This document shows positions 3,352 to 21,686 of a stretch of 26,659 nt of DNA, piece after piece; within the stretch, counting starts at the first letter, position 1, and each line of letters begins with the position of its first letter. The stretch spans positions 1-26,659 of the IMG/VR virus record IMGVR_UViG_3300012936_000135, one strand, 5' to 3'. The notes beneath the pieces were generated by a model, which saw only the letters and a list, made by a program, of their open reading frames with translations, searched no databases and was not told where the DNA came from. This DNA is from a virus. The translations under genes and the position numbers were made by a program.

Positions 3352-5214
3352 TTATACACTTCTTAGCCTACTCATTCCACCTCTTTGATTACTAATAAAA
3401 ATATCATTTCCACTTATACGTCCAAACACTTCAACTTGTTGAGTTCCACCTCCATTTATCATTCCTTTTAATTTATCTAAAGGAGCAACAACTTCTGGAT
3501 TCGATGCACTGGTCCCAGCTCCCTCACCAATCAATCCTAATGTTGGACCAGTTACTAAACCTCCTTGAGCAAAAGCTGGAATTAAAGAATTAAAAGCACT
3601 TCTCGCAAGACCAGCAGCCAATCCAGCAATTACTGGAATTAGAAAAGGTGCTATTTTTAAAGCTGGATTTGACAAAGCATTGCTTATAGCGGCTGCAACT
3701 CCTTGAGATATTAATGCCCCTATTGTTTCTCTTATTGCATTTTTTGCAGTTGTAGCAAACTCTTTCATATTGTTTGCTCCTTGTTGTAACTGTTGACCTA
3801 AAGATTGACCCATTTTTAGAATAGATTGCTCGGTCATTCCAAAAGCTTCGGCTAGTTGTTCTGTTAAAGTTTTTGTTTTAAATAATTCTTCATTTGCTTT
3901 TTTGAAATCCTCAAATGAACTAAATGCTGGTTCTACGTCACCAACTATTGTATCTTTATTTTCTGAATCTGGTGCTGTCGGCGACCCCAAACTTAAAGGA
4001 TTACTTAAAAAACCTAAAGCTTTCGCTAGTTCGGATGCTTGATTTTTTATTGCATCTGCAAAACTAGTAAATTCTGTTTCGTAATCTTTAGATTCTTTTT
4101 TAAATTCTCTAATTGTGTCACCAATGCCCAAAGCTATGGCAAATCTACCGCCTAAAATTTCTGTTAAATCTGCTGCCGCTTCAATCAAAGCATTTCTCCA
4201 CCATGACCAATCAGATAATCTAACTTTAAATGCTTCATAATTTTCTCTAACAAACATAAACCCAGCAACCATAGCCGCTAGACCCATTAAAATAATACCA
4301 GTTCTACTAAAAAGATTTGAAAATAATTTTAACAAACTACCAGAAACAGACAATAATGGACCAATAGCAGCTGCTAACAAAGTAAAATTTGCAATACTTT
4401 GTTTTAGTTGAGGATTCATATTTTGTATGTTTTCTACAAAACCTTTAGCCCAGTTTAGTATTTTTTGAGCTACTGGTAGCAACATAGTACCTATTTCTAC
4501 ACCTAAATCATTTAAATCACCTACTAAAATTCTAGTTTGATTTGCAAAACTTCCAGATGTTCTGTTAAAATCACCAATTGCTTTTGTGCTTTGTTGAGCT
4601 GCAAGTTGAAAAGTTAAAGTTGCTTTTTCTACTCTCGTTAATTCTTTAAAAATTAAACCTTGTTCTAAAGCAAAAGTTTTTAAATCTGCTTCTGTTATTG
4701 CAATTCCTAAAGATTTTATTGATTCTCTTTCACCTAATAAGGCTTTTGTCAAAGCTAAAGATGCTCCCTCAGCACCTCCAGAAAAGTTTGTGAATGAGGC
4801 TAAATCCACAGCCAATTCATTTACTTGTTTAGATAAGTTTAAAGCTTCTTTTTCAGTAAAACCAAAACCAACTAATAAATCACCAGTGTCACCAAGCATT
4901 TGTTTTGCAGCCTTACTTGATAGACCAAAAGAATTTTTGAAAGTGTGTGCTGTATTTTCAGCTTGTTTTTGTATGCTACTAAAAACTGTTTTGAATTTTG
5001 AATCTGTTTCCTCAAAATCACTAGCCATTTTTATTGCAGCGGCTCCTAAACCAAGAACTGGTATGGTGATATTTCTTGTAAGAGTCTGACCAGTACGTTC
5101 CATTTTTGCACCAAACCTACTGACACTTTTTTGAGCCTTTTTCATTGCTCTGTCAAAGCCTTGGAAATCAGCTCCAAACATTACAGTTAATTTTCCAACA
5201 AGTCCTAATGCCAT
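3352..5214 (-). CDS. Tail tape measure protein
   Basis: At 620 residues this is the longest tail gene before the fibre, and it follows the tail chaperone pair, which is the standard place for the tape measure. The start (MALGLVGKLTVMFGADFQGF) and the Lys-rich helix after it match the TP901-1-like tape measure family, in which the protein sets tail length and is delivered through the tube. Hydrophobic stretches lie around residues 270-325 and 520-550, as expected for segments that reach the host membrane. The C-terminus has the Gly-rich GGLVTGPTLGLIGEGAG segment followed by PEVVAPLDKL, frequent at the end of such proteins. Using the usual 1.5 angstroms per residue, the tail would be about 90 nm long. 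The start is preceded by AAATAAAAA and has no Shine-Dalgarno. No muramidase or peptidase domain is visible. Confidence 0.93.
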   Translation of the reverse strand: MALGLVGKLTVMFGADFQGFDRAMKKAQKSVSRFGAKMERTGQTLTRNITIPVLGLGAAAIKMASDFEETDSKFKTVFSSIQKQAENTAHTFKNSFGLSSKAAKQMLGDTGDLLVGFGFTEKEALNLSKQVNELAVDLASFTNFSGGAEGASLALTKALLGERESIKSLGIAITEADLKTFALEQGLIFKELTRVEKATLTFQLAAQQSTKAIGDFNRTSGSFANQTRILVGDLNDLGVEIGTMLLPVAQKILNWAKGFVENIQNMNPQLKQSIANFTLLAAAIGPLLSVSGSLLKLFSNLFSRTGIILMGLAAMVAGFMFVRENYEAFKVRLSDWSWWRNALIEAAADLTEILGGRFAIALGIGDTIREFKKESKDYETEFTSFADAIKNQASELAKALGFLSNPLSLGSPTAPDSENKDTIVGDVEPAFSSFEDFKKANEELFKTKTLTEQLAEAFGMTEQSILKMGQSLGQQLQQGANNMKEFATTAKNAIRETIGALISQGVAAAISNALSNPALKIAPFLIPVIAGLAAGLARSAFNSLIPAFAQGGLVTGPTLGLIGEGAGTSASNPEVVAPLDKLKGMINGGGTQQVEVFGRISGNDIFISNQRGGMSRLRSV

Positions 5215-5217
5215 TTT

Positions 5218-5876
5218 TTATTTAGTTTTGTGTTCCGATAATTTTTTAATATACTCAGCTTTTTCTTTCAACTTTTTATAATCTATCTCTTTTTGTTTCT
5301 TGTCCCACTCAAATTCAATCAGATCAGTTGGCTTTAACTTTTTACCTTTTGCTATTTGTATATTTAATAACAATGTTGTTTGCCACCTTGTTCGTTCCCA
5401 GTTTGCTCTTTCTTTTATATTTTCAATCTCATAAAAACCATCCAACTTATTCCAAAAATGTTTAGGCAAGTAGTCGTAAAATTCCTCAACTCCCATTCCT
5501 AAATATCCAAAAGCAATTTTCTCAAGTTTACGCCAAGAAAGTTTTTCTTTTACTTCTTGGCTTTTTGCTTTTTTTCAGTATCACCGCCCATTTGCTCTGC
5601 AAGAATTTCCATAGCCTTTGCAATAGAATCATAATCATTATCTATTAAGTCAGCTAAGTCATCTATTGTTATTTTGCACTCTTGCTTTGCAGCTCTGTAA
5701 CCATCCTCTATTCCGCAATAAATTAAATTTAAAGCATTGTCTAAAGTCATGTTGTTACCTAGTTTATCTAAATCTTGCAAAGTTGTATTAGTTTTAGATG
5801 AATATTTTCTTAAGGCGTTAAAACCAAATTTTATTGGATGTTTTTTATTATCTATTTTTATAAAAGTATAATTCAT
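5218..5876 (-). CDS. Tail assembly chaperone fusion (G-T type) made by -1 frameshift
   Basis: Reading begins at the ATG at 5876, slips -1 on A AAA AAG (5574-5568) at codons 102-103, and continues without a stop into the frame ending at 5218. The product is about 219 residues: 103 shared with the short form, 24 bridging codons, then 92. The bridge reads KLSWRKLEKIAFGYLGMGVE and continues into EEFYDYLPKHFW, the Leu-Gly/Glu-Phe-Trp pattern of the T-part of tail assembly chaperones. A stand-alone start at 5496 (Met in YLGMGV) is possible but would cut this motif in half. In lambda-like phages G and GT bind the tape measure and recruit tail tube subunits at a fixed ratio. The position just ahead of the tape measure gene fits. 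Confidence 0.85.
5532..5574 (-). promoter_or_regulatory. Programmed -1 ribosomal frameshift signal
   Basis: The heptamer A AAA AAG at 5574-5568, in the correct zero-frame phase, is the same slippery sequence used in E. coli dnaX. After a 6-nt spacer (CAAAAA, 5567-5562) comes a hairpin: GCCAAGAAG (5561-5553) pairs with TTTCTTGGC (5540-5532), nine pairs including one G-U, with a 12-nt loop. The zero-frame stop TAA (5552-5550) is inside the loop. Confidence 0.88.
5550..5876 (-). CDS. Tail assembly chaperone, short form (G type)
   Basis: This is the zero-frame product, 108 residues, between the tail tube gene and the tape measure gene. It is acidic in the middle (DDLADLIDNDYDSIAKAMEI) and ends in a Lys-rich tail encoded by the slippery region. 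Size, position and the frameshift overlap with the next frame identify it as the G-like tail assembly chaperone, a cytoplasmic assembly factor that is absent from the finished tail. The N-terminus (MNYTFIKIDNKKHPIKFGFNALR) resembles the chaperones of Gram-positive and Bacteroidota siphoviruses. The start is preceded by AAACTAAACAAAA with no Shine-Dalgarno. A hairpin lies upstream at 5900-5933. Confidence 0.85.
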   Translation of the reverse strand: MNYTFIKIDNKKHPIKFGFNALRKYSSKTNTTLQDLDKLGNNMTLDNALNLIYCGIEDGYRAAKQECKITIDDLADLIDNDYDSIAKAMEILAEQMGGDTEKKQKAKK

Positions 5877-5946: not shown

Positions 5947-6378
5947 TTAGTTTACTGTTTGTGTAATAGCACCAGTCCCCTCTATACTTAGAGAATATGT
6001 TGCCGTGTCCTCTGTTCCGCCAGTAAAGCTCATTGATGTTATAAAACCACTCCCAGCATAACTTACATCATTAGAGGATGTATCTCCAAATATAAATGAG
6101 ACCGCTGTTCGGTTAGTTCCTAATAAATTAGATGCTGCTAAGTCATCAGCTCCATTTGTTAAAGCCGAGCCACTTGCATCAGTCCAAGCATAAGCACCAT
6201 CTATATCAATAGAGAAATCTCTTACTCCTTCTAAAATTTCTTTAAATCCAGCACTTTCTTTGTTAGTAATCTCTCTTGGTGAGTGATTCATATTTAACGT
6301 ACAGTTTTGAGCAAAGGCAACAAGATTAGTTGTTCCAGAGCTATAAACTTTTATTTCTGTTCCATTTAAAATAGCCAT
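5947..6378 (-). CDS. Major tail tube protein (TP901-1 type)
   Basis: This 143-residue protein starts MAILNGTEIKVYSSGT and has the features of the TP901-1-like major tail protein family: an early basic-polar NHSPREITNKES segment, the FSIDIDGAYAW strand, and a C-terminal beta-rich FTGGTEDTATYSLSIEGTG. Hundreds of copies stack as rings to form the non-contractile tail tube. The position between the tail terminator and the tail chaperones is standard. The hairpin directly downstream and an A-rich leader (AAATAAAAGAAA) before the ATG fit a highly expressed gene. It has no extra C-terminal Ig-like domain, so this is a minimal tube protein. Confidence 0.9.
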   Translation of the reverse strand: MAILNGTEIKVYSSGTTNLVAFAQNCTLNMNHSPREITNKESAGFKEILEGVRDFSIDIDGAYAWTDASGSALTNGADDLAASNLLGTNRTAVSFIFGDTSSNDVSYAGSGFITSMSFTGGTEDTATYSLSIEGTGAITQTVN

Positions 6379-6592: not shown

Positions 6593-7009
6593 TTATGTTG
6601 TTGGATTAATTTGTCTAATTTCAAAATCTAAAGCTTTTCTAAAAATACCAGAATCACCGCTAGTGTCATCAAATATATCATTGTAACTTTGAAATTGACT
6701 TGATTGTATTGTTTCACCTCCATATGTTCCCTCATTAATTCTATCCATTGCAACTCTAATTTTTTGTGCTAAATCAGATGCCTCAGAATATGTTTCACTA
6801 TAACAAGAAATCATTACGTCATTAGTGTCAAGTGTACTTGCACCATCCTTTGTGTCATTAGGGTCAACACCAGTTATATCATAAATTATAAAAGGAAATT
6901 GAGTTGTTTGTGGTGCTACATTAGGAAATATCCTTGTTCCTACTAAATCAAAAACATCACCACTACCTCCATTGTATAAAATATTATATATAGCTTTTCC
7001 TAATTGCAT
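6593..7009 (-). CDS. Tail terminator / tail completion protein (DUF3168-like)
   Basis: The 138 residues begin MQLGKAIYNILYN and continue with the hallmarks of the DUF3168 family: an N-terminal helix, a TRIFPNVAPQTTQFPFIIYDI strand pair, a VMISCYSETYSEASDLAQKIR helix and a C-terminal strand ending in Arg-Gln. Members include the HK97 gp10/SPP1 gp17-type tail completion proteins, which cap the tail tube and join it to the head. The order gp6-like, adaptor, gp10-like, DUF3168, tube is the canonical one. The ATG lies 1 nt after the stop of the previous gene. Confidence 0.85.
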   Translation of the reverse strand: MQLGKAIYNILYNGGSGDVFDLVGTRIFPNVAPQTTQFPFIIYDITGVDPNDTKDGASTLDTNDVMISCYSETYSEASDLAQKIRVAMDRINEGTYGGETIQSSQFQSYNDIFDDTSGDSGIFRKALDFEIRQINPTT

Positions 7010-10415: not shown

Positions 10416-11390
10416 ATTATTATTTTTTATTGTTCTGTTATTCATAACGTCCATAATTTCTTTATGTGATTCAAATGCCATATATACTTCAAGTGAATCT
10501 AGTTGGTGAGTATGAAATCCATCACCTTGACCATCCCACCCCATTTCTTTAGCTTCATTGATTGCCTCTTCTTTAGTATCATATAAATTCATTTCAATGC
10601 CATCAGTAATCATTGTGCCTACTTTTTTTCTATAATTTTTTTCTTCTTTCATTTTTTTTACAACTGGGTGATTATCTGGTAGCAAATCAGTATCATGTTT
10701 GCCTCCTCTAAATTTTCCATTTTTTACAGCGTAAAGAAAAGAATTAACTCTGGCTAAAGCCCATTGGTCAGGGCTTTTAACTGTTGGACGTACACTTTGA
10801 GGATTTGTATTGTAAGCTCCAATCCCCCTATCATAAACTTTTTCAAGTTTAGCATAAGTAACTTTTGTATTCCAATTTTTTTTTGAATCTTTAACGTCTT
10901 CATTATGATCTTTAACTTTATTCTCTAAAGCTGTTTTTATTTTTTTTGAAACTCTTTCTTCTTCTTTAATAATTTCTTTTCTTTTTCTTTCACTCCATTT
11001 TACAGCAGCATCGCCTCCCCACAAAGCCCAAGCTATTCGTCCGGCACTTGGAAAACCATCTTGATCTGGATAAAAACCTTTTCCTTTTTTATCAACTTCA
11101 TGTCTTTTTAAATAGCTAAACATTCTAGTAACTCTATCTGGAGTTAGTTCATTATTTATTATCATATTAGCTGTTTTTAAACCAACCTCAGTCCCACCTC
11201 TTCCAAACTCTTTACGCCATTCTTTTCCTTTTTTTGCTTCATTAATCATGCCTTCAGTTGAGGTTAAATCAATGTCACTTAAAGCTCTGTAATCACTATT
11301 CGCGTCATCGGCTTCTTTTTTTGAATCATAAATACATGAGCCATTTTCACCCCATTTCCATTTACCATTGTCACACTGTATACTAGGCAT
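9789..11390 (-). CDS. Prohead protease with a long N-terminal extension
   Basis: The C-terminal ~208 residues are an HK97-type prohead protease (family U35). They run from MEKRIFNIETRVD through GYASVYDSRSNNLGGFYEYI, the catalytic His in ALINHD (about residue 389), the Ser in ISQSSFAF (about 443) and the DISSVTFPAY strand. The ~325 residues in front contain three modules I recall from marine phage minor head proteins: an N-terminal CDNGKWKWG...CIYDSKKEA element, a KEWRKEFGRGG...WALWGGDAA element, and GIGAYNTNPQSVRP followed by DQWALARVNSFLY and HDTDLLPDNHP. An Asn-rich linker joins the parts. I chose ATG 11390 (MPSIQC) over the TTG at 11399 because it is the common family start. It overlaps the portal gene by 8 nt. 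An in-frame ATG at 10415 could release a free protease. Confidence 0.88.
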   Translation of the reverse strand: MPSIQCDNGKWKWGENGSCIYDSKKEADDANSDYRALSDIDLTSTEGMINEAKKGKEWRKEFGRGGTEVGLKTANMIINNELTPDRVTRMFSYLKRHEVDKKGKGFYPDQDGFPSAGRIAWALWGGDAAVKWSERKRKEIIKEEERVSKKIKTALENKVKDHNEDVKDSKKNWNTKVTYAKLEKVYDRGIGAYNTNPQSVRPTVKSPDQWALARVNSFLYAVKNGKFRGGKHDTDLLPDNHPVVKKMKEEKNYRKKVGTMITDGIEMNLYDTKEEAINEAKEMGWDGQGDGFHTHQLDSLEVYMAFESHKEIMDVMNNRTIKNNNMEKRIFNIETRVDTNEEGKDVVVGYASVYDSRSNNLGGFYEYIERGAFTDELIQKSDVRALINHDASKIMARSKNGFGTLNLRADEKGLRYEFEIDPELSYAKDLAISLKRGDISQSSFAFTIAPNGDEWSTDADGNNIRTIKKFDQIFDISSVTFPAYSQAESDLVVAKRGLKEYQESLVEKTKEQKKNSLVRNSLISLNIELKKRK

Positions 11391-18447: not shown

Positions 18448-18689
18448 TATAATAAACTTAATTGTTCATTTAATATACTTATTTTACTTTTTTTATAATT
18501 TGGAAGTTTTCCGTTTTCTTTTAATTCAAGCCCTTTAATTATATCATATATTTGTAAATTTGGAAAATTTCTTTTACCATTTTCATGCCATGTTATTATA
18601 TGTTTATTTTCTAATTTTAATTTATAAGTTATAATTCTTTCAAATGGGCCATCATAAGGACCTATTTTTTTAATAATTTTTGCTATCAT
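18447..18689 (-). CDS. Small hypothetical protein beside the thymidylate synthase homologue
   Basis: An 80-residue basic protein of unknown function, beta-rich at the start (MIAKIIKKIGPYDGPFERII and LENKHIITWH). Both ends overlap neighbouring genes as TAATG, so it is translated together with the synthase homologue upstream and the replication protein downstream. Composition is extremely AT-rich. Confidence 0.65.
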   Translation of the reverse strand: MIAKIIKKIGPYDGPFERIITYKLKLENKHIITWHENGKRNFPNLQIYDIIKGLELKENGKLPNYKKSKISILNEQLSLL

Positions 18690-19324
18690 TATGTATTTAA
18701 TTTAAAATTTACTTTATTGCCTTTTAATAATAATTTTGTTTTTTCTATATTATTTTCATATATATGAGCATTACCTATAAAAAATGTTATATTTTCTAAT
18801 TGAATATCTATCATTTTTGAAATTAAATATGCATGATAAATATCACTTGGTAAACCTAAATTGCTATCTGCTGATCTTTGGTAAACAGTTATAAATAATT
18901 TATTATTACTAATTTGAAATTGAAATAAAGATAAACATGGTAATTGTGAAGTTTCAACTCCAGTTTCTCCAATAAATAATATATAATTTTTTGATGATCT
19001 TTTTTCTTTATTTATTTTGTTAATTAATTCAGGAAGTTTTTTAAAGTATTTAGGATATGTATTTATCATTTTTGGTTTACAATAATCCCACCATGTAATT
19101 TTTAATTTATTATATTCATTTACTTCATCAACACCATTACAATATAATATTAATTCATTTTTTAATTTTTTCTTTGCTATTTTATGTTCATTAAATATTT
19201 TATTTAAATCATTTACATTCATAGATAAAACTTCATTTAACAAATAAATAATATTTCCTTTTTTATTATTTTGTTTTTGTCCGGTATTAATTATATTATT
19301 TAATAATTTATAATATTTATTCAT
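18689..19324 (-). CDS. Thymidylate-synthase-fold enzyme, probable dCMP methyl- or hydroxymethyltransferase
   Basis: The 211-residue protein aligns with thymidylate synthase: YYKLLNNIINTG at the start, ELILYCNG (Glu57), TWWDYC, the nucleophile Cys130 in LPCLSLFQFQ, YQRSAD (Arg150), GLPSDI and AHIY (His187, Tyr189). Spacing from Cys to Arg (20) and Cys to the specificity residue (31) equals that in E. coli TS. That specificity residue, Asn177 in TS, is Asp161 here. Asp at this place is what makes T4 dCMP hydroxymethylase, and TS Asn-to-Asp mutants, prefer dCMP. The phosphate-site RTG is KKG here (KTG in T4 gp42). The Arg-Arg dyad appears as Lys-Asn and GD.HIY as GNAHIY, so the enzyme is divergent and short (TS is about 264). 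Likely substrate dCMP, acting in the cytoplasm; activity is inference. Confidence 0.75.
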   Translation of the reverse strand: MNKYYKLLNNIINTGQKQNNKKGNIIYLLNEVLSMNVNDLNKIFNEHKIAKKKLKNELILYCNGVDEVNEYNKLKITWWDYCKPKMINTYPKYFKKLPELINKINKEKRSSKNYILFIGETGVETSQLPCLSLFQFQISNNKLFITVYQRSADSNLGLPSDIYHAYLISKMIDIQLENITFFIGNAHIYENNIEKTKLLLKGNKVNFKLNT

Positions 19325-20459: not shown

Positions 20460-21686
20460 TTATATAACAATTTTAAATACTGTTTGTTTTTTGTGTGTTT
20501 TATCTAAACTTTTAGCATTATAAGCTGATAGCTCTTTATTTATTGCATAACCATTAAATCCTTTTGTATGTTGCAAATCAATTCTAATATCATGCCTTTC
20601 ATTGTCTTTCATAATATATATGTTTTGAGCCGCCCTAGAGCTTAATAATAAGGCATTTTCACTATAAGCATTAGCCCCTACTAATGAACTTGATCTAGCA
20701 AACATATCAGTTATCTTAGTTTCATGTAAATGACCACACATCATAAAATCAAGTATTATACCATTTCTAGCATATTTACTTACTACTTTAGCTATTTTAT
20801 CATTTTGCATGTTTCCTAATTGATGACCATGTATTAGTAGGCATTTGTGACCATTAACCTCAACAACTAATTCTAGGCCTCCAGATGTAATAAAATTAAT
20901 ATCTGGTAACAAAATTCTAAGTATTTCAAAGATAGAATAATCGTAATTGTCACTAGCTACAATGTCTACGAAACCCAGCTCATAAGCTCTTGATTCATTT
21001 CCAGAAACACATCCGACACTAACATTTGCTATACTGTTTAAATCTAAAATAAAATGCTTTAATAAGTGAACACCTAAAAAAGTAGCCTTTGCCCTATTAG
21101 TTGACATTGCTAATTTTTCATCAAGCCTTCTATCTGAGTTAAGTAAATCACCAGTTATTGCTATAAATATTTCATTTACATTGTAAAAACTAGCATATTC
21201 TTTTACATAATGAGCAAACTTTTGTAACCTTTTAGATGCAACCTCAAAATCATACTTATTATTTTTTAAATCAACAAGTTCATTAAAATGTGTGTCAGCA
21301 ATTTGAACTATTATAGCTTGTTTACCTTTGTTTTTATGCTGTTTTATTGTTGTTTTAAGGCTTTCTGCTTTAAGCAAATCAATTAAAGCTTTATTATACT
21401 CAACTAAAGCATTTTCAAGCCTTACATGCTCTCTAAATGATTTGTTCTTTATTCTATTAAGATCAGCTTGTTTTTGACTTTTTTTAGCTAGTTTTAAGTT
21501 TTCCTCTATAACTTCTTTGTCAGCTAATTCATATTGTATAATATCTTTTATTCTATGCCTTAAACTTCTTTTACTTACATTTAAATTATATTTATCAATT
21601 AAATGTTGTGCAATAGTTTGGTAGCCATTGCCATTCCAAAAATGTTCTATTATTTCATCTTTGTATTCTAAATATTTTGATTCCAT
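20460..21686 (-). CDS. Metallophosphoesterase with N-terminal helix-turn-helix
   Basis: The 408-residue protein has an N-terminal helix-turn-helix (about residues 1-52: IIEHFWNGNGYQTIAQHLID, then SKRSLRHRIKD) and a basic helical linker (60-118). A calcineurin-like phosphoesterase domain follows with DTH (131-133), GD (179-180), GNES (229-232), HGH (286-288) and GHLH (318-321). In most members the third motif is GNH; here the catalytic His is Glu231, as in a phage subgroup with SGNE. Substrate is unknown; a DNA phosphodiesterase or nuclease, guided by the DNA-binding end, is plausible. The ATG follows the endolysin stop with no gap. It is the last gene before the terminator at 20384-20402. Confidence 0.85.
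   Translation of the reverse strand: MESKYLEYKDEIIEHFWNGNGYQTIAQHLIDKYNLNVSKRSLRHRIKDIIQYELADKEVIEENLKLAKKSQKQADLNRIKNKSFREHVRLENALVEYNKALIDLLKAESLKTTIKQHKNKGKQAIIVQIADTHFNELVDLKNNKYDFEVASKRLQKFAHYVKEYASFYNVNEIFIAITGDLLNSDRRLDEKLAMSTNRAKATFLGVHLLKHFILDLNSIANVSVGCVSGNESRAYELGFVDIVASDNYDYSIFEILRILLPDINFITSGGLELVVEVNGHKCLLIHGHQLGNMQNDKIAKVVSKYARNGIILDFMMCGHLHETKITDMFARSSSLVGANAYSENALLLSSRAAQNIYIMKDNERHDIRIDLQHTKGFNGYAINKELSAYNAKSLDKTHKKQTVFKIVI

Follow-up and report, generated by a model that had tools for sequence, protein, structure and literature searches.

We conclude that the site studied here is very probably a programmed −1 ribosomal frameshift signal, which would join the putative tail assembly chaperone G of an uncultivated phage to its putative T domain. 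The window, by which we mean the whole stretch of viral DNA analyzed, comprises positions 1 to 26,659 of IMG/VR record IMGVR_UViG_3300012936_000135. The relevant features are as follows, in the order in which they are read.

6593 to 7009, minus strand: tail terminator (PHROG 347, E 8.6e-31)
5947 to 6378, minus strand: major tail (tube) protein (Pfam PF06199, E 1.6e-9; PHROG 1407, E 1.1e-24), directly upstream of G
5553 to 5876, minus strand, with its TAA at 5552 to 5550: G-like open reading frame, 108 amino acids, the zero-frame product and putative tail assembly chaperone (PHROG 2115)
5218 to 5574, minus strand, with its stop at 5220 to 5218: T-like reading frame, −1 to G, 118 amino acids counted from the heptamer, no start codon before M26
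5568 to 5574, minus strand: predicted slippery heptamer A_AAA_AAG, in phase
5562 to 5567, minus strand: spacer CAAAAA, 6 nt, its spacing kept in relatives
5554 to 5561, minus strand: predicted hairpin 5' arm, GCCAAGAA
5550 to 5552, minus strand: zero-frame stop TAA, in the predicted hairpin loop
5532 to 5539, minus strand: predicted hairpin 3' arm, TTCTTGGC, overlapping a conserved Trp codon of T
3352 to 5214, minus strand: tail length tape measure protein (PHROG 1535, E 7.9e-31), directly downstream of T

The genes follow the order large terminase, portal, head maturation protease, major head protein, head-tail connectors, tail terminator, major tail protein, G, T, and tape measure, with the T frame ending at 5218, three bases ahead of the tape measure gene. 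In tailed phages, the tail assembly chaperone pair sits between the major tail protein and the tape measure gene. The lambda case is covered in a review (PMC5009743). G matches PHROG 2115, "tail protein" (E 1.4e-6), and its AF2 model (pLDDT 83) has as its best PDB match the HK97 tail assembly chaperone 2ob9 (Z 4.4), followed by YqbN 3klu (Z 3.7), both weak (VIA); several BFVD matches bear the name tail assembly chaperone. Foldseek found nothing significant for the model in PDB, tail chaperone families in Pfam, including Phage_TAC_12, scored below the cut-off for G, and searches of phage records using G gave no match. T belongs with PHROG 16333 (E 1.5e-26), a family with no assigned function. 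The Pfam score of the window's T (PF06223, E 0.042) is below the cut-off; Pfam Phage_TAC_6 (PF09550) was matched by 7 of 35 aligned T relatives, with a best E of 1.2e-7. Relatives of T from isolated phages come only from Cellulophaga and Bacteroides phages, so the host is likely a member of the Bacteroidota; a search of GTDB genomes found no T relatives, and hence no prophage and no direct host link. Elsewhere in the phage, at window 18689-19324 and 20460-21686, lie genes for a thymidylate synthase homologue and an exonuclease.

At the end of G, the zero-frame codons on the minus strand read GGT GAT ACT GAA AAA AAG CAA AAA GCC AAG AAG TAA. A first-pass annotation of the sequence had placed an in-phase A AAA AAG here, followed by a 6-nt spacer, and the coordinates bear this out on the minus strand. 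It had also called the −1 frame open; that frame is closed by a TGA overlapping GAA and then runs open for 118 codons down to 5218, encoding the putative T domain. Because the −1 frame opens only after this TGA, any frame switch is confined to a 25-nt overlap, and the heptamer (5574-5568) lies at the 5' edge of that overlap in the correct phase. The 9-pair hairpin of the same annotation comes close to the predicted fold, although the count has to be amended to 8 pairs, a 1-nt bulge, and 2 further pairs around a loop of 9 nt. Its placement of the TAA within the loop was right: the U belongs to the last predicted pair, which closes the loop, and the remaining letters lie inside.

The 37 nt 3' of the heptamer have a minimum free energy of −11.1 kcal/mol (z −4.65), which none of 200 dinucleotide shuffles reached, and only 0.6% of 37-nt windows on the minus strand fold as well. 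In-phase A_AAA_AAG occurs 5 times in the 7,242 codons of the phage, so that the chance of finding one in the 8-codon overlap is about 0.5%. A stronger argument against chance than either statistic is the conservation of the arrangement in all 115 distinct close relatives. A wider fold, in which the slippery region pairs with a downstream TTGCTTT, was dropped since it looks nonconserved (relatives of about 70% identity have GCATTT). An upstream Shine-Dalgarno stimulator is absent from the window, where GGGCGG stands in its place; GGAGG is present in 15 of 37 relatives and is not conserved.

The survey of IMG/VR metagenomic phage contigs and four phage-record loci yielded 250 distinct junctions, 245 of them with a usable G frame. 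T lies in the −1 frame relative to G in 244 of these 245, and in the +1 frame in one (Cellulophaga phage phi39:1). The site is a homopolymer, and an indel in its A run, introduced during sequencing or assembly, could in principle have split one continuous gene. We regard the probability of this as negligible and reject it on the basis of the survey: the two-frame layout recurs in 250 distinct junctions from many metagenomes, run lengths differ yet the frame relation stays −1, and a version with G and T in a single frame was found in none of the 250. One-frame homologues were what the first-pass annotation had said would point to such an indel.

The close clade of the window comprises 115 distinct relatives with 71 distinct cassettes. 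Every one of the 115 has an in-phase heptamer and, exactly 6 nt further on, a 6-bp stem that pairs completely, a count for which the heptamer with the paired arm was chosen where there were several candidates. The heptamer is A_AAA_AAG in 108 and the lambda-type G_GGA_AAG, which is lambda's own, in 7; by context, there are 73 cases of A7G, 33 of A6G, 2 of A8G, and 7 of GGGAAAG. The 3' arm was anchored on the conserved Trp codon of T, that is, on the protein frame and not on pairing, which keeps the pairing count from being circular. Among distinct cassettes, the arms are GCCAAG/CTTGGC (49), CCCAAG/CTTGGG (13), GCCAAC/GTTGGC (4), GCCAGC/GCTGGC (3), and GCCAAG/CTTGGT (1), i.e., four Watson-Crick versions with compensated changes plus one G-U version. 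Arm variants are fully paired in 21 of 22 cases, against a mean of 10 after shuffling. The sole unpaired variant is that of relative L376, for which the first of two heptamers had been picked; this sequence has more than one in-phase A-rich heptamer before the stem, and we take the shift site to be the one 6 nt ahead of it. In a 25-sequence alignment, 100% of cells are paired and three pairs have changed on both sides, a covariation score matched by 1 of 500 shuffles. Compensatory changes in related phages had been anticipated in the first-pass annotation and are now in evidence. The exchange of AAAAAAG for GGGAAAG, together with the four compensated stem versions, makes the comparative support unusually good.

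These data also bear on whether the ribosome or the RNA polymerase would slip. In the latter case, the polymerase would slip on A7 and T would be read from mRNA with an extra A. Runs of A7 to A8 are capable of slipping at a low rate, and the distant clade described below looks as if it behaves this way. Nevertheless, we consider transcriptional slippage very unlikely for the window and its close relatives. Their phase is fixed while the A run varies from 6 to 8, 7 of 115 have GGGAAAG without a long run, and the hairpin at 6 nt covaries, whereas an RNA polymerase needs neither a fixed phase nor a covarying hairpin. Retention of the phased heptamer despite the varying run therefore argues for the ribosome over the polymerase in this clade.

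T appears to depend on the shift, because in 114 of the 115 close relatives the stretch from the heptamer to the conserved Trp codon contains no ATG, GTG, or TTG. The first ATG in the T frame is usually 13 codons past that Trp, inside a block conserved as protein. In the window, an open reading frame with an ATG does run from 5496 to 5218, and an internal start there would yield a separate T, leaving G and T unlinked. This is highly improbable, and we reject a separate T start: the conserved N-terminal block SWRKLEKIAFG lies upstream of the ATG, is retained as protein in relatives, and has no start codon ahead of its Trp; the T frame of relative L047 lacks an ATG altogether; and the conserved heptamer and stem would be left unexplained.

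We propose that the majority of ribosomes would translate G and terminate at the TAA. The hairpin 6 nt ahead would hold the ribosome with AAA AAG in its P and A sites, and some tRNA pairs would re-pair one base back as AAA AAA. The shifted ribosomes would continue in the T frame and produce a G-T fusion in minor amounts. If lambda is a guide, G would coat the tape measure protein, and the tail tube protein would be recruited by the T part. We infer both the occurrence and the rate of slippage, as well as the roles of G and G-T.

The first-pass annotation had considered the enclosure of the stop within the stimulator a notable variant, reasoning that a ribosome terminating in the zero frame must melt the hairpin. 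This view was not supported: the base of the stem is already 6 nt ahead when AAG is in the A site, so shifted and unshifted ribosomes alike have to open the stem, and the position of the stop varies. Even so, enclosure of the stop is a nearly constant trait of the clade. Of 71 distinct cassettes, 70 have the stop between the stem arms, at +12 to +30 nt from the heptamer, and all 71 have it ahead of the 3' arm; across all close relatives, the distance is +0 to +30 nt. In L051/L375 it is located in the spacer, ahead of the stem, and in L085 it touches the predicted stem. As an addition to ribosomal frameshifting, the loop stop might be a working part, in that a zero-frame ribosome would end atop the opened stem and thereby change how quickly the hairpin re-forms ahead of the following ribosome. 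The near-constant enclosure speaks for this idea, which we consider doubtful given that the stop precedes the stem in L051/L375 and that another zero-frame stop follows 1 to 21 codons from the Trp codon in most relatives, so a short G tail may suffice. We see no evidence for a special role of the enclosed stop.

The initial reading of the site as a lambda-like G/GT −1 frameshift cassette is supported by the frame relation and by the conservation of heptamer and stem. As in lambda (PMC5009743), the frames overlap between the major tail protein and tape measure genes and the −1 shift would occur near the end of G, at a heptamer of the X_XXY_YYZ type. The features shared with the lambda type are thus the gene position, a −1 overlapping T with no upstream start, and a conserved in-phase heptamer. 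The window clade differs from lambda in its common heptamer, A_AAA_AAG, and in the conserved hairpin 6 nt downstream; T resembles lambda T only below the Pfam cut-off, and G showed no such similarity. Escherichia coli dnaX has the same A_AAA_AAG with a 3' hairpin a few nucleotides downstream, and according to PMC3711429 and PMC5009743, its shift gives a shorter product and is aided by an upstream Shine-Dalgarno stimulator. Here, in contrast, the shift would give the longer product and such a stimulator is not conserved. The use of a dnaX-type heptamer had been flagged as notable in the first-pass annotation; this was not supported, as no other shift-prone heptamer of bacteria is better known than A_AAA_AAG (PMC5009743).

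More distant relatives of T (about 30 to 49% identity) lack the heptamer-plus-stem layout. They come from marine and other contigs, Bacteroides phages F4 and Bacuni_F1, and a faecal contig, and their 121 distinct junctions fall into four groups. At the frame change, the run is exactly 9 A long in 102 of the 121 and 10 A long in 14 (116 of 121 together). The A9 run starts in codon phase 0 in 19 cases, phase 1 in 30, and phase 2 in 53, and no consistent hairpin was found at the A9/A10 junctions (L095-L214, L418, and L426-L537, e.g., L126, L163, and L467; L132 and L133). In the T tree, which is built on a short alignment and has many unresolved forks, the phase has changed no fewer than 7 times, with the run remaining 9 to 10 A long, and the heptamer-stem group forms one side of a branch with SH-aLRT 90. 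A run that keeps its length while its phase changes is expected under polymerase slippage, and this pattern suggests that the distant relatives use RNA polymerase slippage. Slippage by the ribosome is also possible, since any A9 run contains an in-phase A_AAA_AAA. Thermus thermophilus dnaX, for which transcriptional slippage (PMC5009743) at an A9 run (PMC3711429) is reported, is like the distant relatives and unlike the window's own site.

Several records in the wider family deserve mention. In Bacteroides phages F4 and Bacuni_F1 (L133 and L134), the annotation gives the two halves as hypothetical proteins that overlap; an unannotated G-T fusion is likely in both, given their A9 run and −1 relation. 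Cellulophaga phage phi39:1 (L131; KC821626.1, around 10690-10710) has an A8 run with T in +1, the sole such usable junction, which is either a real change or a homopolymer miscount in the record. One small group (L454-L457, L460-L464, L096, and L097) has a G-rich site, ACA AAG GGG GAG or GAG GGG GAG, ahead of the stop, and a CCTCAG/CTGAGG stem after the stop; it is possibly a third version of the shift signal.

The cassette in the window is of a known kind, the tail gene −1 frameshift already familiar from lambda. What is new is a well-supported signal of this kind in an uncultivated phage group, probably of Bacteroidota. Annotation pipelines treat the halves as genes in their own right or as hypothetical ones; the Cellulophaga and Bacteroides phage records are examples. 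The A9/A10 relatives are a more interesting line than the window's own site. The proposition that one tail chaperone family uses two machines to make G-T, ribosomal slippage in the window clade and RNA polymerase slippage in the distant one, has in our judgment an even chance of being right. For dnaX and IS elements, switching between these two modes is known (PMC3711429). The texts searched contained no report of such a switch for tail chaperones, and polymerase slippage was linked to tape measure genes nowhere beyond a general review; absence from these texts is weak evidence. If the proposition is true, translational recoding would have been exchanged for transcriptional recoding in a phage gene pair that is essential by analogy with lambda. 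In the wider family, nature has set ribosomal slippage beside what may be transcriptional slippage for the same job, so that the two can be compared.
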